In this document: piece by piece, positions 1-48,368 of the stretch
How positions within the stretch are numbered: position 1 is the first letter of the stretch
How the letters are laid out: every line of letters starts with the position of its first letter
Assembly: GCA_963920765.1 (NCBI GenBank)
Contig: OY987245.1
Location: forward strand, 4,666,727-4,730,726
Direction: 5' to 3'
Origin: Ulota crispa
Taxonomy: Eukaryota > Streptophyta > Bryopsida > Orthotrichales > Orthotrichaceae
DNA length: 64,000 bases
Translations under genes and position numbers: made by a program
The notes under the pieces: generated by a model
The model's database searches: none
What the model was told of the DNA's origin: nothing
Seen by the model: the letters and a program-made list of their open reading frames with translations, nothing else

Positions 1-865
1 CTGTTTCTTCAATTAGTGTGAGTCATGGTAATTAGCGTGAGGCGCAGTATCTGAAATACCTTCTCTACGAGACTCAACGCTGACTAAATCTAAAGTCACC
101 AGTTAAAATTTCATGCATGGTATTTGACCGCACTTAACCAAGGTACTTCGAAACTCAAAGTACTCCATCTAAACAAATCCACCATGCGACAAAACTATCA
201 AATGCATTTGGCATTCATCCACATTTGCCATGTAATTGATTGAAGAGTTGAATCTGTTGAGCTTCCATATTGGACGGGCCTTCTGGTTCTGAAACCGAAT
301 TCTATTCTCGTGTTATAGATAAAACAGCATTACTAATACTGCGCAAAGACCTCATTGTCTTGGGAGATATGTTGAGTGATGGAACGCTTTTATATGAAAA
401 CCAGCCATAGGTCTCTCAACTTGAAGAGTGTCATGCACAATATCGCAAGGGGTGATTCATCCAGACGACCTTGTGAATATAAACAAAAACATGTACATCC
501 TCAACATGTCTCAATCCATGTCCCTCATATCGTTCCTCTCACAAGATGACCAAGGGAATTCTGCTCCAAAATCTGCACTACTTTTATCTACACTAAAAAC
601 TGTAAACAATGTCACAAGTCTGCTACAACACTCGTCATACCAACTTCTGTATCACCACTTTCTGCGACTTCCGCATATGACGCATTTGCACTGTCATACA
701 CGAACCTGCAAATCCCCACATCACACTCAAAAGACATTCTCTACAAAGCAATGCAAGATTATATAATCAAAAACTAAACAGGGAACAAAAATTCTAGTAT
801 AGATGGCTAATACATGGCCAGGACAATTTAACAAGCAGAAGTGGAATTTCACGATTGAAGATGGC
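1..865. other. 3' flank of the CD2BP2-type gene, no gene seen
   Basis: Moderately AT-rich sequence downstream of the stop codon of the minus-strand gene. The open frames here are short, have no recognisable domain and no codon pattern, and I do not support any of them. I see no repeat that recurs elsewhere in the window. Confidence 0.5.
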
Positions 866-3800
866 TTAGCAAGAGACGACTTGCCATTTCCCAGATGCTG
901 CATTGCAGAAAAGGCCCGAGTTCTTGTCATAAAAGTAACCATCATCCGCGTTGTAATAGTATCTACAAACACAAACATTAATTGTGTTAATAAAAAAATT
1001 TAAAGCAGAAAACACTGCATGTTGGTACACGAAGTTATAAAATCTGTAAACAAAACGTGGTGATATTACACCCAGAAATTAGCTTGTACTGAAAAGCCTA
1101 AAGACTAACGACATGTGTTACTGGAACAGCTAAAATTCTACAGTTCAACTTGCAGACATAACCATTTCCATTGCTGTCAATTCAAAAGACAATAACAAGA
1201 TATATCTTACCCCGAATTTGCATCATATATATATCCAGGGAGCTCAGCTAATGTGTTGCTAATTTGTTCCGCTTGTGCATGCACGTTGCCAGCAGTTTCT
1301 CCTGGTGTAATGGATAATGGTGCATCTTCATCTCCACCGAACATGTCAAAAGAGTCATCGTCACCAAACATGTCTCCAGCGGTAGATGGTACCTGCCAAT
1401 CGAATGCGTTGGAATCGGCACTTCAGGATACCTTCGATTATGGCGGGTTAGAGTTGAAAAATAAATCGGACTTGAGAAACGAAATGCCACAACAATAACT
1501 AAGTTATATGACCAGATGAACCATACAGTGCAAACAACAAATGCATGCCTCAAATCTGGCTAAGGACACAACGTTGGATATCGGAAATTTTACAAATTTC
1601 AAGGAAATCTACAACCTACTCTAAATAGTTAAGCACGACAAATATTGTGATTCTGAAGTATCTTACGTGATATCCTCGTGTAAGTCCAATTTCAAGAATT
1701 TCACATGTGCTCACTCGCCCATCTAGTTCACGTGTACTACATCACAAAAATCTCAGAGCAATATTTATATGTTACCTGAGAAGAAGGCTGCATTATCCCG
1801 TTGCTAGAACTTGTTTCACCTCTTCTAGCTCGAGCAAGAGCCTCATAACCATCTGAACAAGCACCAACTAAACTCAGAACAAGAATACTCTTATGAGGCG
1901 TTTGACAAAGACAATTGTATGGATCCATTTCAAGAGAAGAAGGCATGCATACTTACCAGCTTCTCGTTGCAAAGTTTCTTTATCTTCGTGATATATATCT
2001 GCAGACACGCAAGTATGTGCAAATTTAGTAACAATGCCAATGTCGACTATTATTGAAAAGTGGAATTTCCACCAATATAGCGGTGATAGATTTGGGTAAC
2101 TGTCATGAGCTATGCATACTGGTACAAGTCAAATATATCTCACAAACTGATGTCCCTGAGATGGCACACCTCATACGTAATGTACAATTGCGCTGGTCCC
2201 TCGTTAGACTGGATATTGTTATGACTGCTTCCCGCTACTACATTCTAAATCACGGCATACTTATCTACAGCATCAGTAATTCACGTCTTTAAGCAATATA
2301 ACATTCGAGTGCTTGGCTGCAATTCAAGTGCCTGATAATCCAGCAGATCAAGAGTCTTACTGTAATCGCCATTATCTAACAGCTTCATAGCGTCCTCCGT
2401 CAGACGATCAAAGATTTGTTTGGTCTCTCCGAACATCGGTGGAGCCCATTTCTTGTCCTTCGTTACTCCTCTCAATCTCCTAAAAGCTTGCAAAATCTAA
2501 AATCCAAAGAAAGATTCTGAGTTAGTAAAATGAATACCAGTTAGGATTCGGTGCCAACACCTGAAAGTATCTTTATTTTGCAGAAGCGACCTACTGATTG
2601 ACTGAAAAGATACAATGATAAAAAGGCTTGAGATAAAACCAACCGTTTCGCCTGGAAGAAGAGTATTCGCAATTCGCTTCTGAAGTACCCACCGCTCCTC
2701 AGTTGAAAGCTCGGTATCTTCTTTTGCCATCTCCTTCTCCTTGATTTTTTTCGCTTGCAAACTCTCGTCAACTTCTGCAGTCTCGAACCATGCGTCCTGC
2801 TCCGAAAGGCATGCTTTAAGTGCAAGGGCACCACAACTTACTGAGAAATAGAAAATAAACCAAAACAACTTTGATGTAAACACTAGAGGCAGTGATCAAA
2901 TGCTTAATGAAGCTGATTAAAATCACTTAGGCCCCTGGAAATAAAATTAAGGAAAAAAGAAGAAAAGGATACGCTATCCAAAACGTACTAGTGAGACACC
3001 GTTCCAAGTATTCACTTTCTAGTCGTGGTCAGAATTCAAACTAAATGAAACAGGAGACGTATCAGAAGTAGCTACCTTCTCATCCTCATTGAGCCGATAC
3101 TCAACATAATTCCCTTGAGCATCAAAGTAGCCTTCTTCTCTTTCTTGATTCAAGTTGAAAGGCTCGATGGTAATGCCATCTTCTAACCTTGCCATAGCAC
3201 CCTGGAATCAAAAACACGTCACCACTTAACAAAGAGAAATATTGGCTTGAAGGAGAACGACTATTAAATGCGAAGAGTCAGCACTCAGAACTATACAAGG
3301 ATATACCGCAATAAGCAGAGCAAAAGAGAAACACATTTTGACATGATGCTATAGAATGATGAAGTAAAAAACACCCGAAAAACGTAAAAGGGAAAAGAAG
3401 AATGTGAACCTTCTCTTCAGCTCTAACAGAATCTTCGACCAATACGACATCCTCGGCATCAATAATCTGCTCATTGCCAACGGTACGCTGTAACGCCCGC
3501 TCCTTGGCTGCCAAACGAGGATCTGTAGCCAAAATAGGTCCTCCCTCTTCCTCTCCATACACAGGATCTTGCAACATTGCCTTCGCGCCCGAGTCCTTTT
3601 TCCCTTTAGGAAATCGAACTTTTTTGCTGCACCCTCAAATGCAACCAACTCGAAGGATTTAAATGAAAGCAAGACTTCGGGAGCTGACAAAAGCTCAAAC
3701 AAAAATGCCTGCAACCTATTTTCTTTCTCCGTAATCATCAATACTACCTCCTTTCGGATAGAAGAGTCTGATTTTGAATTTTCAACAAAATCGTAAATAC

Positions 3801-4744
3801 TTTGTTGAAAGTTTTAAAAAAACGGACTGAGACAAAGGATGAATTTGATAGTACGGTATCTTGTGCTGTAAGAACATAATTTGACGCACTCTTCAAAGCC
3901 TTCATAGATGTTCTTACAGTCGCTCAGTTCTAATTGATCAATTCGAAATTACCACTTGACAAATCGAATGGATCAGAAAGTATCTATCACAGTGTTGCAA
4001 AGTAACAAATAAGCGCAAATCTAACCAATGATCAACGTCACGAAATCTTGACGGAAAGCATAGGTCTGATGCAAGGTCAATAGAGGCTGCCGCAACCTAA
4101 ATTCATCAAGGCAAAAGGCTGAAAGTCAACTTGAATTAGGTCAACTTGCAAGACGACTCATATGCAATAATTGAATCATCCAGCGTTGCAAAACTCAGCA
4201 AAAGTGTAATACGAGCATCGGACACTAATTTTCGAAACTTCAAAAAAAATGAAACTGTTATTGGACAAAGAGAATATCTGATTAGAATGCTGGAGCTACT
4301 GAAGACACTCAAGAGATCATGGCAGGAGCTCCTGTGACAGTATTGGCACTAGAATGATTACCGTGGTGGCTCTGGTTCATCCCATAACAATGCCTCGTCT
4401 TCCACCTTGCGCTTGCTGTTGGATTTGCGCGCTCTAACACCGTCAGGTTCCTGAAACTCCGCATCGTTTTTCGCCTTCATACCGCCAGGTAAACGCAGCA
4501 ACAAGGAGCAGGAAGGGAAACGTCCGTCCTGTGAGGTAAGGAAAGAATCGTGATGTACTACGGCAGAGCCCGTCACCAATCGGATGTAGTGCGAGGGGAT
4601 ATCCGTCCGGGAAGATACGAGAGCCGCGACGCTCGCCCCGGAGACTACGACTCCACTCGGGAAGCGGAAACAGAGCGTGTGACCGTCTAACCCTTTCACC
4701 AGCATGTTGTGCCGCTCTGGAGGAGGCTTCTCCAACATCGCCAT
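866..4744 (-). CDS. CD2BP2/LIN1-like U5 snRNP protein with N-terminal Sde2-type ubiquitin-like domain
   Basis: Nine-exon model: 4744-4362, 3626-3410, 3201-3076, 2796-2644, 2496-2361, 1998-1957, 1852-1776, 1392-1211, 962-866; every junction is GT-AG and keeps frame, giving 470 codons. Residues 14-88 resemble the Sde2 ubiquitin-like fold (start MLVKGLDGH, end LLLRLPGG). Then follow basic stretches (KRKVEDE; KKVRFPKGKK at 129-138), DPRLAAKERA, the family block IEPFNLN...EGYFDA..GNYVEY in exon 3, and a helical region with TEDAMKLLDNGDY. The last 40 residues are aromatic octamers (GYIYDANS, then GYYYNADD, then two weaker ones), an OCRE domain; I see no GYF domain. CD2BP2/Snu40 proteins work in nuclear U5/tri-snRNP assembly. 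I chose the ATG at 4744; an in-frame ATG at 4804 lies inside a 10-bp repeat. The fusion is inference from exon 1 carrying both the ubiquitin-like domain and the family's basic N-terminus. Alternative: exon 1 read through alone gives a 128-residue protein stopping at 4359. Confidence 0.88.
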
Positions 4745-4780
4745 GGCCACAACAACAGGCTTACCGAACTTTCGGAGACA

Positions 4781-4818
4781 ACAATCGAGAACAATCGAGA
4801 ACAATCGAGAACAATCGA
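4781..4818. repeat. 10-bp tandem repeat in the 5' leader of the CD2BP2-type gene
   Basis: The decamer ACAATCGAGA occurs three times, followed by a partial fourth copy. On the minus strand it lies just upstream of the chosen start codon and contains an in-frame ATG at 4804, so copy number changes would alter the leader and could alter the apparent N-terminus. Confidence 0.85.
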
Positions 4819-4883
4819 CGACGTGCGACCAAAAACTTCGAACCCTCGGAACAAGCCCCGGCGAGAACGACGATGCGAAAACG

Positions 4884-4892
4884 AAACCCTAA
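4884..4892. promoter_or_regulatory. telo-box (AAACCCTAA) upstream of the CD2BP2-type gene
   Basis: An exact telo-box about 140 bp upstream of the chosen start codon. Telo-boxes are common in 5' regions of plant genes for translation and RNA metabolism. Presence is seen; regulatory use is inferred. Confidence 0.5.
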
Positions 4893-4921
4893 TTCAGGCT
4901 CTAGGACGGACTGAACCAAAC

Positions 4922-5597
4922 TAAGGTAGAAGGCTCATAAACCGACCATCTAAGGGCTGAAACTGAATTTTGGGGAGGTAGAACTTCTTGAAATATTTTT
5001 CAGTAAAATTTCCTTAACCCCTAAACGTCCGAAACGTCCGAAAGGACAAAAATTGTTCTTTGGGAAAAAAATCAAAAAAACAAAATTGAAAGTGGTCACA
5101 ATAAAATGCCACATCATTGAATGTCAAAAATAGCTACTTTCAATGCCTTCATCTTTTTTAAAACATCAATTTGTGAAAAGATGTACAAGATCCCCTAGTG
5201 CTCTTTTTGAGAGTAGCATATAGTATTGACTTTTCATTCTTTTGAAAGAATATTCTCTTCAATGGGCACATGCTATACGTTGTTTGCTATCCATGAACAG
5301 TGTATATTCCTTGGTCAGAGCCCTAGGTTGGTAGTAGGTTTGGAGCCGTCCTTTAAGGGTTAAAAGACCAGAAGAATTGACATCTAATCCAAGTTGTTTC
5401 ATATTTTTTAGAGTTTTGTAGAATTAGTTATGAAATTTTGAAGCTGAAGTGGCATAGGGCTCTATAACCGCTCACCTCCTCAAATGTACACCATTTGTAC
5501 AATTTGGAAATCTATGAAAAATTACATGTACAAAGTGAGAACACTTTGGAGGGTGAGTGGTTTTAGAGCCTGGACGTATTTCAAGCCTTCTACCTTA
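4922..5597. mobile_element. DNA transposon, TAAGGTAGAAGGCT family, carrying a nested element
   Basis: It starts with TAAGGTAGAAGGCTCATAAA and ends with AGCCTTCTACCTTA, a terminal inverted repeat. The left half, and the part after the nested 342-bp element (5018-5359), match the reverse complement of 20417-20750. No clear target duplication is seen, perhaps because another element starts at the right end. Confidence 0.7.
5018..5359 (+). mobile_element. 342-bp TTAA-flanked MITE (piggyBac-like ends), nested
   Basis: It begins CCCCTAAACGTCCG and ends CGTCCTTTAAGGG, and TTAA lies on both sides (5014-5017, 5360-5363). It is a relative, in opposite orientation, of 23683-24037. The paralogous host copy near 20652 has a single TTGA at this point and no insert, so the borders are well supported. 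Confidence 0.85.
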
Positions 5598-5598
5598 G

Positions 5599-6523
5599 CC
5601 CATAAAGGACCATTGTCCCTTTGGGGGACAAGTTGGACTTCGGGCATGTACCTATGGCTAAACTACTTTGCGTAATTTTCTGAAATTTTTATTAAAGGTT
5701 GGGATTTCAAAGATCTACGTGGGCATCTAATTTTTTCTTCATTTCGACATTTGACGAAGAAGTTATGCAAGAATTTATGAAAATTTGAGGAGGACTACCC
5801 GTCTAGGCAACCCAAAAACTTCTTTAAATTTTACTTTAAAAAAAAAAATTTGAAATTGATTCTTTCAATTCTTTTATTCATGAGAAGCTTTGAATCATTC
5901 AATTTCAATCAATGACATGAAAGTTACGAGGAGTTTTTGTTTGCGGGTAGTTATGGAATCTCTACTCTAAAATAAACTTTGAAGTTCTTTATTTTACTCA
6001 ATTTTTATTCTTTTGGAAAAAAAATTAAACCAAAGGAAGTAGATTGTTTATCAAAGCATTATTATTGTTGGGATTAGCATTTTTCATTTCCATAATTTAA
6101 TTCTTAAATATTTAGTGTTTTGACTCATTCTCTACTTCTTTTTACTTACTATTTTTTCTTATGTGTTGTACAGTTCCAATCGATTTGAAAATTCTCCCAC
6201 ATATACCTAACTTGATCTCCTACATGGAAAAAATAAAGCACAACTTTGGGTAGAGTAATTTTTTTTATTACAAGAGTGGTCAAAGGCTTCTAAAATTTTT
6301 GGGCAGCATGGAAAAAAAAACCTTCTTTTTTCACTTTAGATGTAAATATCTCACTCCTTACCATTTGAAATGAGCTGATTTTTTCCCCACAAGTACCTCT
6401 TCCAATTTAGGGCAAGACTCTACTATTGGATTTAAAACATAAAATCATTTCTACTGAACCTCCTAAAAGTGGCAATTTTTAGTGATTTTGATAAAAAAAA
6501 AAATGGGCTTGGTCCTTTAGGGG
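5599..6523 (+). mobile_element. 925-bp TTAA-type element, copy A
   Basis: Ends are CCCATAAAGGACC and GGTCCTTTAGGGG, with TTAG on both sides. It is the inverted counterpart of 8272-9176 and related to 47458-48361. It has no coding capacity that I can support, so it is non-autonomous. Confidence 0.75.
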
Positions 6524-6704
6524 TTAGTCTTTGAAAGACGACAAAGAGTGTTTTGTGCTCAAAAGCGTTTGAGATCATTTAAATTCTTTTAAAAAAATGA
6601 ATTTCTATTTGGTAGATAATTGTTTGAGGTGATTGGTGTAACTAGGGTGTTTGGTCCATTTTTAGTACGTAATGCTTTATGCACACGTTAAGACCACTTT
6701 AAAG

Positions 6705-8267: not shown

Positions 8268-8271
8268 TTAA

Positions 8272-9176
8272 CCCTCGAAGGACCAAGCCCTTTTTTCTAC
8301 CAAAATCATTAAAAATTGCCATTTTTAGGAGGTTTAGTAAAAAGGATTTTATGTTTTGTTTTTGGAAAATTTAACTGTAGGATCTCGCCCCAGATTAGAA
8401 GAGGTATTTGTGAGAAAAAAATCAACTCATTCCAAATGGAGAGGAGTGAGATATTTTTTTCCATGCTGCCAAAAAATTTTAGAAACCTTTGACCACTCTT
8501 TTAACAAAAAAATTACTCTACCCAAAGTTGCGCTTTACTTTTCCCAAGTAGGAAATCAAGTTAGGTATATGTGGGAGAATTTTCAAATCAATTGGAACTG
8601 TACAACACATAGGAAAAAATAGTAAGTAAAAAGAAGTAGAGCATTCAAAACTCTAAATTTATAAGAATTAAATTATGGAAATAAAAAATGCAAATCCCAT
8701 CGGTGATAATGTTGTGATAAACAATCTAGTTCCTTCAATTTATTCTTTTTTCCAAAATATTAAAAATTGAGTAAAATAAAGGACTTCAAAGTTTATTTTA
8801 GAGTAGAGGATTTATAACTGCCCACAAACAAAAACTCCTCATAACTTTCATGTCACTGATTGGGATTGTATGATTCAAAGCTTCTCAGGTATAAAAAAAT
8901 CTAAAGAACCAATTTCAAATTTGAGTTAAAAAACAAACAAAAAAAAATTTCAAAAAAGTTTTTGAGCTGCCCAAATGGGCAATCCTCCCCAAATTTTTGG
9001 AAATTTTTGCATAACTTCTTTGTCAAATGCCGGAATAAAAAAGAAATTAAATGCCCACGTAGATCTTTGAAATCCCCACCTTCAATAAAAATTTCAAAAA
9101 AACACAAAAATTAATTTAACCATATGTACGTGCCTGAAGTCCAACCTGTCCCTCGAAGGGACAACGGTCCTTCTGG
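8272..9176 (-). mobile_element. 0.9-kb TTAA-type element, copy C, inverted relative to copy A
   Basis: Starts CCCTCGAAGGACC immediately after the TTAA that ends copy B, and runs as the reverse complement of 5599-6523 to GGTCCTTCTGG near 9176. The outer border is less clean than the inner one. The small frames in it are not supported as genes. Confidence 0.7.
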
Positions 9177-20416: not shown

Positions 20417-20750
20417 TAAGGGAGGAGGCTTGAACTCCGTTAGGGCACTAATACTGCTCACTTTTCTAAATGAACTCCGTTGATACATGCCCTTATTCAT
20501 AGCTTTTCAGAAATGTACAGCAGGTGTAAATTTAAGGAAGTGATCCATTTTAGAGCCTTATAACCTTTTCATTTCAAAATTTCATAACTAATTCCACATT
20601 GCTCTCAAAAATACAAAATAACTTGAGTTAGATGCCAATTCTTCTTGTCTTTCAAGGAAAATTTACTGAAAAATATTTCAAGATGTTTCACCTCCCCAAA
20701 ATTTAGTTTCAGCTCTTAGATGGTCGGTTTATGAGCCTCTTACATTATAA
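20417..20750 (-). mobile_element. TAAGGTAGAAGGCT-family transposon, paralogous empty copy
   Basis: Reverse-complement relative of 4922-5597, with ends near TAAGGGAGGAGGCTTGAA and ATGAGCCTCTTACATTA. It lacks the 342-bp TTAA element: at 20652-20655 it has a single TCAA (TTGA on the other strand). Confidence 0.7.
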
Positions 20751-23682: not shown

Positions 23683-24037
23683 CCCTTAAAGGGCTGACCT
23701 TGAACCCGTGGCTCATACCGAGGAGAGTGCACTGTTCATGGGCAGTGAACAGCCTGTGGCATGTGTCCAAGAGAGATAATATTCTCCTCAAAAGAAGGAA
23801 AAGTCAATAGTGTATCATGCCCTCACAAAAAGGGTAGCAGGGACCTTGTACATCTCTTTACAAATTGGTGTTTTAAAAAATATGGAGGCATTGAAAGCAG
23901 CTATTTCTGGCATTCAGTGATGTGGCACATCTCTCTAACCACATTCAAGAAAAAAATTGAAAAAAAATCTTTTTCCACCCTTGGGGTGTGTTTTTGGCAT
24001 TGAAAGGACAATTTTTGTCCTCTTGGACGGTTAGGGG
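23683..24037 (-). mobile_element. 355-bp TTAA-flanked MITE, sibling of 5018-5359
   Basis: Ends CCCTTAAAGGGCTGACC and GGACGGTTAGGGG, with exact TTAA on both sides (23679-23682, 24038-24041). It aligns along its length to the reverse complement of 5018-5359. Minor indels make it 13 bp longer. Confidence 0.85.
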
Positions 24038-29791: not shown

Positions 29792-30701
29792 CCCTTGAAG
29801 GCTTTTGACTAAGTTTTCACCAAAACTGCTCCAAAATTGTCATTTTTAGTACAAGTATTGAATTTGAGAAGAAAATCATTGTTGGACACATATAACCATA
29901 AGATCTTGTAGTACACTAGTATCAAAAGATGTGAATTTTTTTTTAGAAATTTTCACCATGTAGAGTGTTAGATATTTGAGTTTGAATTAACAAAAAGCCA
30001 TTTTTTGTCCCCCCAAAAACTTGAGTAGCTACACTTCACAAGGTCATATTTGTATGAAAAAATTTCCAAAATGGTTGTAACTCTTTGGACTCATTCTTCA
30101 AGGCAAGTTGGGGCACACACTTAAAATCTTTCAAATCATTTGGAATTGTACAACACATGGGAAAATGAAGTAGAGAATGATTCAAAACAGTTTATTATTA
30201 AGAACTTAATTATGAAAATGAAAAACGCCAATTCCTACAATTGAAATATTGTATTAAGAAATCTACATCTTTTGGCTTTATCTTTTTCCAAAATATTGAG
30301 AGTTAAAGGACTTAAATTTTTTTTAGAGTAGATCCATAATTGCCTGCAAACAAAATCTCCTCATAACATTCATCCCATTGATAAATATGGAATGATTCAA
30401 AGCTTCCCATGTATGTATAAATCAAAAGAACCAATTTTGGTTTTTTTTTTTTTAGAAAAGTAATTTTAAAAAAATTTCTTTGAGTTGCTCAGCTGCCCAA
30501 CCGTTAAAAAAAGATACATATCATGCAATAACTTTGAACAATGTATTCAAAAGTTATGAAACTTATTGGACTATAAAGCTACTCCTTGAGCACATCATGT
30601 GTGAAAATTTCAAAAACAAAAAAACAAAAAAACCATTTGTAGTGAGGTGCCCAAAATTGCTATGTTGCCAAAAAAAAAAATGCTATTTGGACCTTTAGGG
30701 G
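29792..30701. mobile_element. 910-bp TTAA-type element
   Basis: Ends CCCTTGAAGGC and GGACCTTTAGGGG, flanked by CTAA and TTAG, each one change from TTAA. Interior resembles 5599-6523, 7261-8267 and 47458-48361. Confidence 0.7.
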
Positions 30702-33533: not shown

Positions 33534-36500
33534 ATGGAGTTCCAGGATCCAAAAGCTGGCGAGCCTCCTCTGGCGGAGCTGTCAGGCATTCAATTCGGCA
33601 TTCTCAGTAAAGAGGAGATAGTATGTTTTTCCACGTGCCATGCAGTTGTCTGTATTTAGCGCCTAGATCTTGAATAGTATGTAATGTCAGCAACTCGTCG
33701 CTAGCGCTGAATTGGCACTGGAATTTTGTCGCTCTCTTGGAGGTCCAGAACCATACTTTATGGCAATGGTCTGAGAACTGCAGACTCTGTCATATCTTTC
33801 CCTGAGAGATTGTAATACGATAATAAAGAAATTACATTGTCGATAGGTACTTGTTTTCCAGAACGTTCTCCTCTCGTGCCCTTAGCGATGTGTCTATTTA
33901 GCGGTTGCAGAGACTGATAGAAGTTCTGAGACAATGTACGTGTACTTTGCACATAACGCGCTTGCAGCAGAAGTTTTTTATTTACCTTTTCTGTTGTATT
34001 GAGCTTTTGCATGTGACATCGCACTTGCAGTTAAAATTTTCCGTCTATGAGGAAACTGAGACCATCAACAATGCCAAGGATCTCTGGGACAATCGCCTTG
34101 GTGTCTTCAATCTCGCGGGGAATGACAATCACTGTGGCACCTGCGGCGCCACAAATGCTAGCGCTTGTGACGGTATGCAATCATAAATGCGTAGTTTCTG
34201 TTATTCGAGAGAAAGAACAGTTGAATTAATTGAGCACCCTGGAAAACCTGACATCTATTGATCCAGTTAGTCTTGCACGTTTTTTGGTTCCAGCTTGCAA
34301 TGGCTACCTTGATACTGGTCTTAACTTACCTTGTGAAGCTCACAGTCATACTACTTGAATGGTTATTTTTGTCTGTATTGTTTCAGGGCATTTTGGACAC
34401 ATCAATCTTCCGCTCGCTATCTATCATCCTCTTCACATTCGCTATTTGAGGAACTTGCTGAGTCGAATATGCCTTGTATGTCATAGATTCAAAGGACGGA
34501 AGGTGTGATTCTTGTGCCTCGATTGCATTGTAAACATCAGCACCGACAGAGGATTGGTTGGTCGGTTCTGATGTTTACATTGTTGACGTGCTTCATTTAT
34601 CTTATCAGCCTGTTTCACAAGTATTCTAACCTCCACACATTAGATTTTTTGCGCAGCTTCTGTGATGTATAAGGCCGAGCGTTTATCTAAATGCAAGTTC
34701 AACAATTGCAGGAGGTCAAGAAAGGTACCTTTGAAGATGAAGCTACTTGGATGGAGATTAAAAGGCTGATAGAATACCGTGAATCTTCAAATGGAAGTGA
34801 CTGTGAAACAGAGGTTGCCGCTCAGAGCATTGAATTCAGTATTAAAACATCAAGCATGCAAGAGAATACGTTCACGAGCAAATCTACTTACGCTTCAGGA
34901 AAGCTAGACAGCATACCACAGTCTATCAAGCCTATAACCATGGAGATGCAAACCAAGCACATAGCTGCATATATTGGCAGGAAGGGCTGTGTCCTGCCTA
35001 GCCCTATTGATATTTCAGATGACGATTCTCCTAGATGTGCAGCTACTAAAAAAACCGCAGACAAATCTAAGAATCTTCAACCGGTGAGTGCCAAAGACAT
35101 TCTTAAGGGTATGCTTTGTGGAATTGCAGGAACTAGGAATCTTTAACCCTCGGATGCAGTTGAATGAACTGGTGAACAGTTATGACTTTCGTGATTTGAA
35201 GCGAGGTTATCTTAAGACAGTTCTGCTTACCTTCCAGGTCAAGATTTCTACAAATTCCAAATGCGCGGGAGGATTGGGGGATGAAGTGGATTCCAGTGAA
35301 TCTTCCGACGACGAAGAGGGCTGCAAGTACTGCGGAGTAAGTTCACTTTGAATTTTCCCTCTTTGACTGAAAATTTCCTGGTATTCGGTTTTTTGATCGG
35401 CAGCGACTTGCGCTGATCTTTCACTAATTTAGCCGTTTACCCGAGCCCGCTAAGTACCCTGTTCCGATTCTGTATCTAATTTATTATTTAGTTTCCTTTC
35501 TGGCAGTCATGAAGCTAACACGAAACACTGATGGTAATGTGACATTGCAGTCGAAACTTACGAAGCGTGATGAACGATATCCAAATCTAGTAGTGCGTTT
35601 GTCCAAGATCAAAGACAATGCCTACGAAACAATTGAAATGAAAGCTGATGGAAAGGAAGAAAAAATACCACTGGACTATTGGAGTTTCGTTAAAGGACAC
35701 GCAGGGGGATGTAAGAACACCAGGCCCCTGTTACCTTTTGAGGTATCTTCTTTCGCTCATCTGTTACTTGTTTAAGTGAAAAATATAAGCTGATTTGTTC
35801 TCAACTTTGTGCCACAACTCTGATAAACATAATGAATGAACCTATGTGGGCAAAGAGTGGACATTGGATTTTGAGTTTTGGTGACGTACGTTTAATACTG
35901 ACTGATGCTGTTCCCCTTTCTCTAATTTAGGTCAGTTTATTCCATTTGTTGTCATTGAATTCAGGCCTTCAATATTCTGAAGTCTTTGTCGAAAAAGGTG
36001 ATACGGAAATTAGGCATGCATGAGCTCCTTGCACGGCCCGAGTCTCTTATTATGGAAACTCTTCCTTTGCCACCTAGTGCATCTCGAATCATTGAATTGG
36101 ATTTTGGCTCGTCCTTACCGAGAGCTCAAACGGTAGGCAAACACCTCTTTACATCCATTCTCAGGTTATTCAGGACGTATGTAGAATTCAGAATAGCTCA
36201 CGTAGGGAAACAGATGCCGCTTTCATGTGCGCACTTTGTGGTGTCCTCTTATCTCTACCATTTTCTTTATATTTTGTACATCTTATCATGTTGAGATTTA
36301 ACCCTTTGCTCAATGTTTAAATTCATGTTTGATTTTTCATTATTAATTTTCAGTGGTACATGAAACCGTGAGACAATCTGGAAACTCAATCACTTCTTTT
36401 TGGAGGTGTGTAAACAGGATAGGCAACACGTGCACCTCCGACGTCTGGCGACTGAAATCAAGCAATGCCGAAATTCATTAACTGACAAGCTAAATTTTGC

Positions 36501-39500
36501 GGGATACAATAATGGCGTCATGGAGCTACAAAGTATAGCTTCTGACTATCTAACAGGTAGCAAGGTATGATAATTGTGACCACACAGCATTTTGTTGAAT
36601 GTCGTAGATGCTTTGACTTGTCATTTCAGCAATTGAAGCTGATAACAATTTCTGCCTTGCACAACCTTGCTCAAATGTGGTTTCCTTCTGCAGTGGGAGC
36701 ATGGTTTGAAACCGAAGACATATACCGCGGTCAAAAACGATGTAGAAAAAGAGGACAAGTTAATGAAGGGTCACATTTTAGCAAAAACAAACAACTCCTC
36801 TGCACGAATGGTCGTTGTTGGTGACCCCTCCATCAAGCTTGAAGAACTATTGCTTCCGCTTTTCTTGGTCGAACACTTGACTATCCCGGAAAACGTCACA
36901 TCATTAAACATTGACCGTTTGCAGCAAAGCGTAGACAATGGTCCTCGTGCAAACCTATTACGAACTGGAGCTGTCTATCTTGATAAGCCAGGAATAGGAC
37001 GAGTCCAACTTACTGCCAGTAGACTGAGAAGAACAATTCTTGAGATTGGAGACACCGTTCACCGCCACTTAAGAAACGGTGATCTGGTAATTGTGAACAG
37101 ACCACCGTCACTGTCGAAACATTCGATTATGGCTATGCAAGTACGTCTTCACCGTGGCTGTTCATTGAGCATCAACCCTCTGATATGTGCATCATTTCAA
37201 GCGGACTTTGATGGTGATTGCATGCACCTGTTCGTGCCCCAATCATCTGAGGCACTTGCCGAAGTTCATGGACTCATGTCTGTGTCCGACCAGTTGATAA
37301 ATCCCCAAGGTGGTCAGTCAAACAATGCCTTGGCTGAGGATAGCCGGCTGGGTGCATACTTGATAAGTAGTTCGTGTTTATTCCTGGAGAAGACGGAAAT
37401 GAGCCAGCTTACAAGCTCAAGCGTCGTATCACTACCTATCCCTGCCATATTAAAATCCCCAAAGCTCAACAAGCCTCTTTGGACGGGTCAACAGTTGTTT
37501 AGCACGGTACTCCCGAAAGGGATTTGTTACAGAGCGACTGAGAAGTTCAGTACCGATGTCCTGAAGGGCATTTTCATACAAGACGGTGAGCTCCTTGTCT
37601 GCGATGGAAGTTCTATCTGGTTGGGAAATTCAGCTGACTCTCTCACAACAGTCATCAGTAAGAGTCAGGGCCCAGCTACAGCACTTGCGTACCTAAACCG
37701 TGCTCAAGAACTTGCGAATTTATACCTCGGAGATCGTGGTTTCAGTGTTGGGCTACATGACTTCCAGCTAACGAGAAATCGAAGTCACTTGTTGAAAAGG
37801 AGGCTTGAAGAAGTGGCAAGAGCAAATCGGGAAGCTTTGATGCAGTCGCTTCTAGCAGATGAGCACGTTCAGAGGGAAGAACTCAAGAAGAATCCAATAT
37901 GTAAGAGAGGTATTTCGGTTGAAACGGAATGTCACAAAAGCAAGGGGTTATATCTAGGGACTGCTGGGATTGTCAAGGGAGTGGAAGGTTTGGACAAGGT
38001 TGCCATTGAAAGGTTCCAATCGAAATTTGGTCAAACTACCAATCGTTTGGCAAAGGATTATTGTAAAAAAGTAAACCCACTTCTTGTGATGATCAAAGCA
38101 GGAAGCAAAGGATCAATGAGCAAGTTAAATCAACAAGCGATTAGTCTTGGGCTCCAGCTTTACAAGGGGGAACACCTCATTCCTTGGAGTATTCAAGATC
38201 TTTGTCAGAAACAATTGACTGACTTGTCAAGTTTAAAAGCAGTTGATTTGTTACAATTTGAAAAAGGATCACCGCTGGTGAACTTGCCAGGATATTGGGA
38301 ATCGAGAGGGATCATAACTAGCTCATATTTGGATGGCTTATCGCCACTCCAGTTCTTTACGCATACTATAGCATCCCGGTATGGTTTGATGCGAGCGAAG
38401 GTTGAGCAACCCAACCTGCTGCTAAAGCGTCTGCTACTGTTCCTGCGCGATCTGTATGTTGGATATGATGGTTCTGTTCGGAGCTTAGAGGGCCAGCAAA
38501 TTGTTCAATATGAGTATGGCGGCTTGCTAGAGATGGAAGAGAAGAGGTGTGCATCCAGACCTGAGAAAAACGTCACTGATTGGTGTGAAGCTGGAGAAGC
38601 TGTAGGTATATTAGCCGCTACTGCAATAACGGAGCCTCTCTACCAACTAAAGTTGGACTCGCCAAATATGATTGGGGCAAAGGCAATTGGACCGCTGGAG
38701 CTTATCAATGTAAGTATCTATTCTATTGAAATCAATTTGTTCTTTAAACAGCTAATGGTTTGTGATGAAGCAATACGACTTCTTGACTAGGAGGCCAATG
38801 ACTTTGGTCTTGGTAGCCGTTGATACGCTCCTCGCGAGGAGAGGTGCATGGAGGTGGTTTCATACGATTTGGACCAACCTTGCTTGAGATATTGAATTCC
38901 AAAATATACTTGTTTGTCAAAATTATTAATTTAAGCAGAAAAGACAAAGAGAAAGTAAACATGATATGATCGCTTTTTGGGCTGCCTAGCTGTGGCAACA
39001 ACACAATCCGTCATAGGTTTCGACTATGGTCTTTTTCTGTAACTGTTGAGTGTTGGCAGCTGATTGCAAAATTTTCGCTCTCTCTACTATGCAAGAGGAT
39101 CGTCTTTAGATTTTCCTTAGTTGTGAACAGTCCATGTGAAGGTACGATCAGAAAGCCCAGGTGATATTATGTTAGATTTTATACAAACTGTCCCAACAGG
39201 ACATTGCTTGTTCACAAGGGAAAAATCACGGACTTGGACAAACTAAGTAAACAATGTATGCGTATGAATACATCATGTGCCTGACTCTACCTTGCTGTCT
39301 GTCAATGCTAGGAAACTTTGAGTTCAAGCAAAATTGTAAAGCTTATTGACAGGCGAATCCTCTTAAGAATGCCTTCTGCTCTGAGAGATAGACGTCATGG
39401 CCAGGAAAAAGGAGCCACAAGGATCCAACAATATCTGAAGCCAGTGTCGTTGGATATGGTAGCATCGACCACTATGATTGAGTATGTGCTACTAACAATT

Positions 39501-42500
39501 CCTTGCTTGAAGTCCTCATTGGAGGACTTTTGAACAATTGGACCACTAGTAACAATTTATAACATCTTCTGTACAGGTTTCCTCTCTTTCGAGTGTCAGT
39601 TGAAATGATATAGCTAGGCTTTAAATATGATATCTAGCTTCGGGTGGTACGAATTCTAAAATTTTCTGCCACATGCTCTTTACGTGTGGTAGGTATAGAA
39701 AAACTCAAAATGAAGTTGAAGAGGGTGGGAGAAAATCACCATGGGTTGGCCACATTCGACTCAATGTGGTAAGCGTTTTTCATTCACTGAGTTTTATAAG
39801 CCACTTCTGAACACCACATTGGGTCACATGTGCCTTATGAGTTTGCTGACTCTGACATTGAATTTTTTGTGGTGACATCTGAACAGGAAAAAATGAAATC
39901 TCACCAAGTAATGTTGAGGGAGACATTAAAAATCCTGGAGAATAATTACTCAAAATGCACATTCTCTGCCAGGTCTGATGGTGATATCATGCATTTAAAT
40001 TTGTTAATACTCTTTCGATACAACAACGCTTCCTTATGTATGCTAGATGATTCAATCAAATTCTCGTATGTATTGATCATAGTTATGGTCCGTGTTACAG
40101 CACTAGGTGTCATTTTGGATCGTCTTCTGCCAGTCAAGAGGAGCAGAGGCCGTGCATTCATTTCTTCATGGAAGTTCCGTCTTGGGTTGCGACACTTGAT
40201 GACAATGAGTATGAATCGTTCTCGTCGAGTTTGCTAGAGGCAATGAAGGGATCGGTTATACCGACCCTTCTAGGCACAAACATAAAAGGTACAATCCCTC
40301 AAAATCCAGTTTTTGTTATCTCACGTTCCCTAGGCAAGGACATCGAACGAATTCTCATGTTGTGATCGATCTTCACATGGATATACAGCTTGAAGAAGAA
40401 TTGGGTTACGAACTGCTCTCGTTCCTGGGCTTTTGAATATTATTTTGCATTAAAGGTCACGACAATAGGATGTCTGAAATGCAGGCGATGAAAGGATCGA
40501 GTCCTTTGATGTTGTGTGGGAGGAAAAGAATTGGAGCCCTAGATGCGCAAATGAGGCATTTTCTAGAAAATCTTGCAAGCGTGGAATTGGGGAACTAGTG
40601 GTCGAGGTAACTGTGAAGGCGAAATACTGCAAAGGCCGGGGCAAGGCGTGGGAAATTATTACCATGGCCTGCCTCCCAATCATGCAACTATTGGATTGGC
40701 AGCGATGCATGCCCTACAGTATCAAGGAAATAAACCATGTTTTTGGGCTGGAGGCAGCCAAAGGAGTCATGTTGCAGGTGATGTCGTGATCAATTCCTGA
40801 TGATATTAGTTCCAACACAGGTTTTCTTGTTAGAAAGTTCTCTGTTTCATTCCACAAATTCAGGGTTTCTTGAATATGCATTTAAGGTCCGAACCAGTAC
40901 TTAAACCTCTCATCTTTGATTCAGAGACTTGAGTTGGCAGTCGAAGGAATGGGGAAAGGTGTGAATTTGGAGCATCTAGAATTGATCTCGGATAGTATGT
41001 TGACCTCTGGGGCGGTCAGTGGAGCATCCATGTTAGGTTACAAAGATTTATGCAAAGCTTCATCTCGGTCCACACCGTTCTTCAATGCTGCATTTCAGGT
41101 TCGTGTTCTTTCACTTCCTTCTTTCATCATCTCTTCTTGTGACAAGCAGGTATGCTGGCACCTTGTCACTTATAATTATGCGAGGTTATGCACAGTTATG
41201 ATGTTCCGTATAGACAAGAATGCAGGGATGTTTCTTCATATAGCTATCTGGCGCTAGCCTTATCTTCTCTTGGCTTCTGAATGCGCAGAATGCCAAGAAC
41301 TCTTTTATTCTCGCAGGACGGCAAGGGGCCTATGAAACTATTGATGGAGCTCTAAGTTCAAGCGTGTGGGGAAGGGCTACTTCGCTGGGCACAGGCTCGA
41401 ATTTTGACATATTTTGGCAGCCGGCGAAGGTAATGTTGCTGGCCTATCTCAAACTTAATATTTCCAAGTGCATTTCTTTTTGGTTGACCAGCTAAGATTT
41501 AGCTTGTGAACCGAGCCTTGCCTTCTCTGTGTAAATACTGTTATAGTATGTGATTTTGTGTATCATTGGCTTGAGAATTGCAGGCGGTAAAAGAGCCTCT
41601 AGATGTTATACATAAAGGAGGTGATATTCACCAGCTTATTGCGAAGTTACCACCACCTGAACCAGTTCCTATTCGGAATAGTCTTACTAAACCACAGAGC
41701 AAAACCCCAGCTATGGCCTTTGGATACCCTATGCATCGACTTAAAGATTCATTTCCTCATGTTAGAGATCATGATGGAAGAAGATTTACTGGTAACAGCG
41801 ATGATCGACGGCTTCAACATTTGACTAGGCATGTGGAAAATTCTTTCGCACGCAGTAAGGTCTCATCTCTGCCAGCAACGGCAGGAGCTAAAGGCATACT
41901 TGGTGACGGGAGGAGTATAAAACTATCTCGGCCAGAAAGGGCAGGGGCCAACCGCGAAGTGTGTGATAGGAGGAATATAAAACCGTCTCAACCAACAGTG
42001 GCAGGGGCTAAAAGGGTACTTGGTGATTTTAGTAGTAAAAAATATTCTGACTTGGACGATGGAAATAAGCACTTGTATCGTGGTCATCAAAAGTCAACTA
42101 CGCGGGTTAAGATGGCCGCAATGGTCGGTCAGGACACTCGAGAACATGAGAATGCTACAAAGGTACTAGCAGAAGGTAATCCTGGTGAAGGAGTATCTTC
42201 TATCTGCATAGATGAGGATTCTGATGATGGATTCAATCGAAATCGAGAGCAGGGTAGAAAGGCACGTAGGCTGCGGCGCATGAGACCGTCAAGTGATGAC
42301 TTTGATCAGGTTGGCAACAATTTCGAACGAGAAAAGCACGCTTCTTATCCCGTGAAACTGCCGGATTCCGTCGGAGAAGCAGCGGGTGATCCCGGGGCTA
42401 ATGGGCTTGAAGATAGCTCATCCTTCCATACACCAAATGAGACCTTAGATCAATCTCTTAGTGCAAGCTCCAGCCCCTCCTCAACTTTTAGAAGGGATCT

Positions 42501-44319
42501 AGTTATTCCGCCTCTCTCTTTGGATTTTCATGCCTCAGAAGGCGATCAGATGAGCGGTATTGGTCAACCTCCACTGCAGACTCCAACTAATGTAGTGATG
42601 AGGTCTGAATCATGTGCAACTAGACAACCTTCTTGCAGAGTTGATCCTCTGGAGTCACCAGACGCAGTTGGTAGCGGCTCTGCATCTCCCAGTGCTAAGA
42701 GATCAAGGGATCAGGGTCCAAGACATCAATTACACTATTCAATCAGGACAGAGAGATTGAGAGCGTCTGAGGATGGGGCAAAGGATGCCTTGGAGCGTCG
42801 CAAAGAGGAGCAAAAAGGCGAGTGGGAAAGATTACTGCAGTTGTCTAAAGCTGTACAGTACATCCTGCATAAAAAGTAAACACGCATACCTGTTTTCTTT
42901 GCATTCCTCTATATGTTTGTCATGAATCCTTGGTCATCTGTTGCTCCAACTGGCCAGTCTTTTGGTTGCGATTCCAACATCCAGTATTGTTGTTAGGGTA
43001 GTGGTTGTGACATCTAAAAATAGACCGACAACGGATGTAAACTTAGCTTGTTACTAACAAAAAGTCCCCATATCGATGAGCTAGGTATGAAGCCAGCGAA
43101 AGTCTCGAATATAAGGATCAGAAGCTGATCATGGAAAAGCTCTTACCATACCATCCTGACTATGCCCAGAAGGTTGGATGTGGTGTAAAATGTATCAAGG
43201 TGAGCCGCTCTTTTGCTGTGTCAGCTTTCTTCTGTTACCGTCGAAAGCTGCGTCATCTGCAGAAGCTTTCAAGATATTGTTTCTATGAGAGAGCACTGAT
43301 CAGTTGTCCTTCTGTGAATCCGCCATGTTGTGTGCTCATTACATTTTTCTCAACATGTGTTTCGTTAATTGACGGGTGACCCTCCTATCTTCTAATATCA
43401 ATCACTAATGAAATTTAGAAATAAGAATTTCCTTTGTTTTTGAAGTGAAGCTCTCTACTCTCACTTCCAGCAGGCCTCTTGTTTGAATTGTAAAGCACCG
43501 TTATTTTATTTTTCCAAATTCTTTCAATTTTTTGCTTAGTTGAAAGAAGTGGTAATTATGGGTGCTCGCATATTAGAAACAAGGGAGAATTTCATGGATA
43601 CCCCTGAAGTTTGCAATAACTTCATAGATACCCCTGCTTTTTCAGAAATTTCACAGATACCCTTGGACCAAAATTTTCAAGCGTTTTTTTGTTGTGCATG
43701 CCACTTCCTTTCTTCCTTTGTGCGTACACATAACAAGAAAGAAGTAGTGTGCGCACAAAGGGAGAAGGGAAGTGGCATGCACAACAAAAAAAACGCTTGA
43801 AAATTTTGGTCCAAGGGTAAATGTGAAATTTCCAAAAATGCAGGGGTATCTATGAAATTATTGCAAAGTTCAGGGGTATCCATGAAATTTTCCCTAGAAA
43901 CAATTCAACATTTAGACATCAGCTAACACTGCATCTGGATGGCTCAAATATGGCAGGTGGATCATCATGAAAGCCACTCTGACTCGCGCTGCTTCTTTGT
44001 GGTCCGCCTTGATGAAACGGTATGCGACTTCTCATTTCGGAAGTGCATCAAAGGCTATGCCAATGCAAAGAGCCCTGCCTTGGCGATGCAATACGATCAC
44101 GAAGTTCTGTTCAAATACGAGCGTGAGAACTGTTCTGACTTGGATATGCCCTACTCTCCTGATTTATACCCAGACTCACCTAACGTCCACCAGCAGCTTA
44201 CTCGTGATCAGATTCCGCTTGCGGAACCCACTAAAGGTGACTGCATTGGATCAAAACTGAGTGATTCCAAACATGAGGAGAGCTCGTGTGAAACGTCGGA
44301 GCTCAAGCCAGGACTGTAA
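33534..44319 (+). CDS. NRPD1: RNA polymerase IV largest subunit
   Basis: Nineteen exons: 33534-33620, 34031-34172, 34387-34502, 34712-35083, 35238-35336, 35551-35742, 35965-36132, 36373-36564, 36694-38709, 39312-39481, 39693-39768, 39887-39972, 40101-40288, 40485-40777, 40925-41098, 41289-41429, 41584-42875, 43085-43199, 43957-44319; 2,093 codons in frame. Pol IV makes the transcripts copied by RDR2 and diced to 24-nt siRNAs for RNA-directed DNA methylation. Seen: zinc motif Cys64, Cys67, Cys75, His78, Cys105, Cys108; MVVVGDPSIKLEE; the metal-A motif DFDGD (about 627-631); SKGSMSKL; a degenerate trigger-loop region (GEAVGILAATAITEP, without the Pol II TLNTFH); and a C-terminal DeCL domain (DSRCFFVV...DFSFRKC). 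VVVGDPS and the DeCL linker favour NRPD1 over NRPE1. It is much longer than Arabidopsis NRPD1 (about 1,450) because of exons 4 and 17. The start follows an in-frame stop at 33519. The exon 8 acceptor is weak. Confidence 0.93.
41881..42060 (+). repeat. three 60-bp in-frame repeats in NRPD1 exon 17
   Basis: Three consecutive 20-residue units, each beginning AGA (41881, 41941, 42001): AGAKGILGDGRSIK, AGANREVCDRRNIK, AGAKRVLGDFSSKK. They lie in a disordered, charged linker between the catalytic body and the DeCL domain. Confidence 0.9.
43583..43894. mobile_element. 312-bp MULE-like hairpin MITE in the last NRPD1 intron
   Basis: TAGAAACAA flanks it exactly (43574-43582, 43895-43903), a 9-bp duplication typical of Mutator-like elements. 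The ends GGGAGAATTTCATGGATACC and its complement continue into arms of about 150 bp, so the whole element folds back. It lies between exons 18 and 19, which together encode the DeCL domain. Confidence 0.88.
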
Positions 44320-47457: not shown

Positions 47458-48361
47458 CCTTTATATGACCAAGCCCTTTTTTCACTGAAAGTCACTAAAA
47501 ATGCTGCTTTTAGGGATGAGTAGAAAGGTGGGGATTTATTTTTTTGAGACTTCAACCCTAAGATCTTCCCTAGGTTATGGGAGGTACTTCATGGAAAAAA
47601 ATCACCATTTTAGATGGAGAGAAGTAAGATATTGACATTTGAATTTTGAAGTAAAGAAAAAAAATCTCCTTCATACCTAAAAGTCATTTACCACTCTTAT
47701 AGTAAAAAAATTGCTCTACACAAAATTGAGGTTTAATTGCTCCATGTATAAAACCATGCAAGGTATGTGTGGGAGAGTTTTCAAATAAAATGGAATTGTA
47801 TAACATACTTCAAAAAACATTTGAATGTCAGTAGATTATGAATATTGCAAATACACTAAGCAAAATTGGAGACTTTATGTAAAATTTTGATATTGGAATT
47901 ACACTAATTCAAATAGGAAAAATCAAAATCTTAGCTTATTACATCTTGGGAAAAAAGTCAGAAGATAAATACACAATCTGCTCAAAATATTAAAGTACCA
48001 AATTTTACAAGGGGCAAAAAGAATAGAGGGTTGGGAGTATCCCAAGACGGGCCCCTTCCACTTCACTTCCCTTTGCCCAATTGGGCAAACCTTGTATCCA
48101 TAAGGGCTAACCCTCTTTGGAGCCAACACCCATTTACAAAAGAGATGCCCTACTTGAATTGCTCCCCCTCTCCTAGTTTTAATAAATTCTTGCATAACTT
48201 CTTTGTCAAATGTTGGAATGAAGAAAAAATTAGATGCTTACATAAGTCGTTGGATTCTTCACTTTCAAAAAAGATTTCAAATGATCATATAAACTAAAGA
48301 ACTTGTTGGTACGTGTCCAAAATCCCATTTGTCCCTTGAGGGGAGAATGGTCTTTTAGGGG
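47458..48361. mobile_element. 904-bp TTAA-flanked element
   Basis: Starts CCTTTATATGACCAAGCCC after TTAA (47454-47457) and ends GGTCTTTTAGGGG before TTAA (48362-48365). Aligns to copy C (8272-9176) and inverted copy A. Confidence 0.78.
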
Positions 48362-48368
48362 TTAAGAG

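Follow-up and report, generated by a model that had tools for sequence, protein, structure and literature searches.

A candidate ubiquitin-like leader on a CD2BP2-like protein with an OCRE domain

The minus strand of the window (the whole 64-kb stretch of DNA analysed) carries a predicted ten-exon gene running from 4744 to 612. Its complete model, with exons placed by eye from sequence and homology, encodes 495 amino acids and includes a stop codon (Table 1). Eight of the nine introns have GT-AG borders and one has GC-AG borders; the latter is the last intron, with the donor GCAAGT at window 883-884. A tblastn search of the window with the protein (E ≤ 10) returned its own exons alone, with no second copy of either the ubiquitin-like (UBL) or the CD2BP2 portion. 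No relatives of exon 1 or of the whole protein were found in the viral contigs searched, and none of the whole protein among the bacterial and archaeal genome contigs searched.

On the plus strand, the region at about 34691-44319 probably holds a gene for a protein resembling the largest subunit of RNA polymerase IV/V, with outer limits that are an impression from the reading frames. The PDB search for this gene covered 36685-38790, and the closest match of the frame at 36646-38790 was DNA-directed RNA polymerase IV subunit 1 (E = 7.8e-76). RNA polymerase IV is a plant enzyme, and the window accordingly comes most likely from a plant. Downstream of this Pol IV-like exon, the open frame 41575-42879 contains a 60-nt (20-codon) tandem repeat at 41864-42027, present in 2.7 copies at 70%. 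Scans of the 64-kb window for tRNAs and Rfam families returned nothing at their thresholds.

Table 1 Features of the minus-strand gene model, with positions in the window
Feature	Position	Strand	Basis
Exon 1, with start codon, ubiquitin-like module and tail; donor ACG|GTAATC	4362..4744	-	Sequence and codon usage
Ubiquitin-like module, residues 13-88, ending LLLRLPGG	4481..4708	-	Ubiquitin similarity, pairwise
Codons Gly88 and Met89, predicted cleavage point	4478..4483	-	Sequence
Met89, possible internal start codon	4480	-	Sequence, start context
Tail KAKNDAEF...KRKVEDE...EPEPPR, residues 90-128	4362..4477	-	Translation and human CD2BP2 alignment
Intron 1, 735 nt, GT-AG, phase 2	3627..4361	-	Gene model
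Exon 2, beginning KKVRFPKGKK	3410..3626	-	Gene model and human CD2BP2 alignment
D1-D2-matching stretch including introns, residues 189-354	1848..3445	-	Match to human CD2BP2 65-231
Exon 3	3076..3201	-	Gene model
Exon 4	2644..2796	-	Gene model
Exon 5	2361..2496	-	Gene model
Exon 6	1957..1998	-	Gene model
Exon 7	1776..1852	-	Gene model
Exon 8	1211..1392	-	Gene model
Exon 9, followed by GC donor	885..962	-	Gene model
Exon 10 including stop codon	612..705	-	Gene model
OCRE-encoding stretch including introns, residues 431-478	666..1236	-	Pfam PF17780

Exon 1 starts with an ATG and runs for 127 codons and two further nucleotides without a stop. It encodes NMLVKGLDGHT...LLLRLPGG, Met89 and KRKVEDE ahead of a GT donor, and the final codon of its tail (residue 128) is split by intron 1. 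Joined to the AG acceptor at 3626, the frame continues as R-KKVRFPKGKK. The original prediction had described exactly this layout, with a ubiquitin-like stretch up to LLLRLPGG, then KRKVEDE and a phase-matched join to KKVRFPKGKK, and the sequence confirmed it; the Met that it placed right after Gly-Gly is read directly as Met89. KKVRFPKGKK requires an upstream exon because the exon 2 frame meets an in-frame TGA at 3637-3635, just upstream of exon 2.

Several measures bear on whether exon 1 is coding. Of 5000 dinucleotide shuffles of the exon, 48 left its frame free of stops and 335 left at least one of the six frames free of stops. Scored against codon usage learned from exons 2-10 together with the nearby Pol IV-like ORF, the modelled frame was the best of six (-0.042 per codon vs -0.247 for the next), a score equalled by 1 of 2000 base shuffles. 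The coding signal was clear in the tail alone (residues 89-127; 0/2000 shuffles) and weaker in the ubiquitin-like part alone (4/2000), where the same strand offers a second stop-free frame that scores -0.237 vs -0.191 for the modelled frame. The context of the first ATG (gtggccATGgcg) is stronger than that of Met89, and one other ATG lies within the 200 nt upstream.

The protein downstream of the module had been predicted to be of the CD2BP2/U5-52K type, and this assignment was borne out by a match to the core of the human protein and by an alignment to its N-terminus. The part of human CD2BP2/U5-52K that binds PRP8 (residues 65-231) is matched by residues 189-354 here (phmmer E = 3.7e-14), with 8q91_F (human residues 65-231) and 8q7q_G as the PDB matches. 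In the human 20S U5 snRNP, CD2BP2 contacts PRP8 through D1 (62-130) and D2 (150-233) (PMC11102862), and the matched human stretch takes in most of both. The local alignment to human CD2BP2, whose sequence was checked against the PDB, begins with PRKKVRF (127-133) on PKRKVTF (human 2-8), which aligns P127-R128 with human Pro2-Lys3. Exon 1 supplies Pro127 and two of the three nucleotides of the Arg128 codon, so its 3' end reads like a CD2BP2 N-terminus, mild evidence that involves two residues only.

The C-terminus is an OCRE domain (residues 431-478; PF17780, E = 4e-15; PDB matches 2mxw and 5mf9) and was the sole Pfam family at E ≤ 1, with no RRM or zinc finger. A GYF domain was not found in the 495-residue protein by Pfam at E ≤ 1, and the same type of search finds GYF in human CD2BP2. 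The original prediction had mentioned neither the OCRE domain nor the missing GYF. Because GYF was not found, we file the protein as CD2BP2-like, which qualifies the plain CD2BP2 label. It shares the D1-D2 core with human CD2BP2/U5-52K (yeast Lin1), along with PRKKVRF in the place of PKRKVTF, whereas the human protein begins at that motif and ends in GYF and the protein here has about 125 extra N-terminal residues and ends in OCRE. With RBM5 and RBM10 it shares the OCRE domain, but here OCRE is joined to a CD2BP2 D1-D2 core, with no RRM or zinc finger in Pfam at E ≤ 1. The OCRE domain of RBM5 binds the Pro-rich tails of SmN/B/B', and the same paper states that CD2BP2 has been linked, via its GYF domain, to binding of Pro-rich motifs of this kind in SmB (PMC5127646). 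An exchange of GYF for OCRE may therefore keep a function.

The module (residues 13-88) was compared to reference UBLs using an in-house pairwise test consisting of a global alignment, with Z calculated from shuffles. Against ubiquitin the module had Z = 7.1 (0/2000 shuffles), with 20 identities across 76 residues and the register kept through to Gly-Gly; minus its last six residues it had Z = 5.2 (0/2000 shuffles). It ranked top of 234 pieces translated from the window when scored against ubiquitin (41.5 vs 17.5 for the next unrelated piece), and the background of 30 pieces from residues 129-495 gave Z ≤ 4.45. Comparisons to NEDD8, parkin, and FUBI (Z of 4.0, 3.5, and 3.1) and to the C-half of ISG15, RAD23A, and human SDE2 (2.7, 1.9, and 1.3) all fell short of the 4.45 that unrelated pieces reach against ubiquitin, so the ubiquitin comparison alone stands out. 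The five UBLs other than SDE2 score far higher against ubiquitin than the module does (Z of 11.6-27.5). In the alignment, the module retains the equivalents of ubiquitin R42, L43, L69, L71, R72, L73, G75, and G76, has Pro at the position of R74, and contains a single Lys. Its motifs are VKxLDGxT, IPxxxxRL, and LLLRLxGG.

Database searches gave a more mixed outcome. With exon 1, phmmer against the PDB (E ≤ 10) returned five matches, four of them ubiquitin-eS31 fusions, with a best E of 0.17 and none significant; the matched stretch, residues 14-112, takes in part of the basic tail. Ubiquitin-eS31 (RPS27A) likewise has a UBL with a basic tail after Gly-Gly, and the module here differs in its 20 identities to ubiquitin over 76 residues, its one Lys, and a partner that is spliceosomal rather than ribosomal. 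The module alone had no phmmer match in the PDB at E ≤ 10. Pfam at E ≤ 10 assigned it no UBL family, while in the controls ubiquitin matched PF00240 at 2.9e-33 and the UBL of human SDE2 was also detected. In a search of 1190 window frames with a six-UBL HMM (E ≤ 50), the module was absent though unrelated frames appeared. This miss is given little weight because human SDE2 also reaches just 0.4 bits with the same HMM, but it is still a result against the ubiquitin-like reading.

Structure models of the module were of low confidence. AF2 predicted exon 1 (127 residues) with a mean pLDDT of 50.9 and the order strand-strand-helix-strand. A Foldseek search with this exon-length model (E ≤ 10) had a best E of 0.38 and none below 0.001, and 42 of the best 50 of 478 rows were titled ubiquitin, UBL, or Elongin B/C complex. 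Residues 10-90 alone were predicted with a mean pLDDT of 52.4 and a second half that differs from the exon-length model, and for this trimmed model a ubiquitin variant made up 1 of the best 50 of 197 rows. The two predictions disagree with each other. On the balance of the pairwise, profile, and structure results together with the shape of the sequence, we consider the module very probably a divergent UBL.

A comparable LLLRLxGG ending in plant SDE2 UBLs offers a lead, and the original prediction had called the module an Sde2-type ubiquitin-like domain. The ubiquitin-like half of that description stands on the Z of 7.1 against ubiquitin. The Sde2 half is not established: Gly-Gly is followed by MKAKND here vs KGGFGS in three SDE2 sequences from the PDB, and the comparison to the human SDE2 UBL was at chance level (Z of 1.18 and 1.26). 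The SDE2 domain PF22782, which matches human and two other SDE2 sequences, had no match to the 495-residue protein (E ≤ 1) or the module (E ≤ 10), nor had the other SDE2 Pfam models. No Sde2 UBL family matched the leader in Pfam at E ≤ 10, but the UBL of human SDE2 itself matches just a vertebrate-specific model, PF22781. The contrast in Z between SDE2 and ubiquitin is not diagnostic, because the human SDE2 UBL itself fails against ubiquitin in the same test (Z of 1.60 and 1.76), which therefore does not separate the two families. A wheat gene is catalogued under the InterPro entry 'Sde2, N-terminal ubiquitin domain' (PMC10952099), and therefore some InterPro model covers a plant. Human SDE2 is an accepted UBL whose PIP box is discussed in PMC5131917; by inspection, this box has no obvious counterpart here. 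Sde2 and the protein described here share an N-terminal module with a terminal Gly-Gly before a splicing-related protein, but differ in the residues after Gly-Gly and in PF22782. With KGGFGS and PF22782 absent, we dropped the filing of the module as Sde2 and regard the label as unproven.

The sequence contains one continuous frame with ubiquitin similarity, Gly-Gly and then Met, and homology to D1-D2 and OCRE. We read this as a plausible fusion, in one gene, of a UBL to a CD2BP2-like protein with a D1-D2 core and OCRE and with a predicted cut after Gly-Gly, and give this reading a probability of about 0.52. For its processing, we infer that the module would fold as a beta-grasp during translation and that a deubiquitinating enzyme would cut after Gly88, yielding a free UBL of 88 residues and a CD2BP2-like protein of 407 residues that starts Met-Lys. 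The latter would bind PRP8 via D1-D2 and Sm tails via OCRE, and the leader would either chaperone it in cis or control its entry into the U5 particle. At LRLPGG-MKAK, Gly-Gly is followed by further residues as in processable UBL precursors. Gly-Gly-Met is also the junction of polyubiquitin. The retained equivalents of R42, L43, R72, L73, and Gly-Gly would fit recognition by a ubiquitin-type protease.

Established systems offer parallels for such a leader. Sde2 is made inactive and is activated by a deubiquitinating cut at GG-K, and its exposed Lys also shortens its lifetime (PMC9508853). Under the established N-end rule, the predicted cut product is expected to be stable, as it would start Met-Lys; the Met N-terminus, unlike the Lys on Sde2, should not create an N-degron substrate. 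For the ubiquitin leaders on eS31 and eL40, a cis-chaperone role has been proposed, with ribosome assembly hindered if the leaders stay in place (PMC8122580).

A fusion that is real and never cut, in which the CD2BP2-like protein would keep the leader for good, for docking or regulation, is in our view unlikely. Cleavage may be hampered by the Pro that stands where ubiquitin has R74, and in NEDD8 the L73P change, one position off from this Pro, blocks deconjugation by CSN (PMC5419743). Human CD2BP2 tagged at its N-terminus with 3xFLAG-TEV-SBP is able to enter the 20S U5 snRNP and was used to purify it (PMC11102862); cutting therefore need not be required, and a leader need not block assembly. 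An uncleaved Ub-eS31 fusion in Giardia provides a precedent (PMC8122580). Against a permanent leader, the exact terminal Gly-Gly and the equivalents of R72 and L73 are kept, and a plain docking domain would not need them. A more elaborate version of the cleavable fusion would have U5 snRNP assembly gated by the leader, with UBL-CD2BP2 inactive until a deubiquitinating cut licenses it to bind PRP8 and sets free a ubiquitin-like modifier specific to the lineage; we regard this as quite doubtful.

It is similarly improbable that the fusion is an artefact of the model or a minor isoform, with CD2BP2 translated from Met89, or derived from a different donor or an alternative first exon, and the UBL a separate product. 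This explanation is kept alive by alternative donors, the Met89 start, and a stop in the retained intron. Met89 has a fair start context. We scanned 40 ATG-to-donor combinations with phase-2 GT from 3700 to 6000, several of which share a donor, using a donor matrix whose weights were entered by hand. On this scale a donor internal to exon 1 at 4692, which would omit the UBL, scores 6.55 vs 6.53 for the modelled donor, and a 20-nt candidate first exon and a 122-nt candidate at 5647-5526 score 6.64 and 7.27. If intron 1 were retained, TAA (CGG-TAA at the donor) would end exon 1 after 128 codons. The weaker coding signal of the UBL part relative to the tail also points this way. On the other hand, the context of Met89 is weaker than that of the first ATG, which has a single other ATG in the 200 nt before it, and the leader is an open, in-frame stretch of 88 codons that resembles ubiquitin.

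That exon 1 encodes no ubiquitin fold, its likeness having arisen by chance in a disordered N-terminus, would fit the missing matches from Pfam, the six-UBL HMM, and module-alone phmmer, the two low mean pLDDT values, and a trimmed model unlike UBLs, but is very improbable given an in-register Z of 7.1 to ubiquitin (0/2000) vs ≤ 4.45 for 30 other pieces, and lower scores (1.60 and 1.76) for human SDE2, an accepted UBL (PMC5131917).

Among the matches listed from open-licence PMC papers, no UBL-CD2BP2 fusion appears in titles or the starts of abstracts, which agrees with the claim of the original prediction that no CD2BP2 with such a leader has been described. Sde2 is the sole splicing factor activated by removal of a UBL leader in the open-licence papers examined (PMC9508853). 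If true, the fusion would be a second UBL leader, placed on a U5 assembly factor, and would suggest that such maturation occurs repeatedly in the spliceosome; deubiquitinating activity would also be linked to snRNP biogenesis. Its weight is tempered by the subtle effect that CD2BP2 knockout had on U5 assembly in human HEK293T cells (PMC11102862). One of the listed papers records CD2BP2 as not found in Stentor (PMC9505925).

A perfect 10-nt tandem repeat (AACAATCGAG) in 3.9 copies, at window 4780-4818, lies a short way ahead of the start codon of the UBL-CD2BP2-like gene, in what is presumably its 5' leader. Window 4921-5598, some 180 bp ahead of that codon, is likely a MITE-type insertion, with 28-nt inverted ends (CTAAGGTAGAAGGCT.../...AGCCTTCTACCTTAG) that are 79% complementary, and parts of it recur at 20417-20747 and 23710-23948. 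This insertion may influence the promoter of the UBL-CD2BP2-like gene. Window 5594-6526 is a dispersed repeat with copies at 8269-9172 (81%), 30129-30488 (73%), and 48177-48366 (74%). On the minus strand at window 59526-60509, two long frames resemble part of a gag-type retroelement gene, an impression from the frames.
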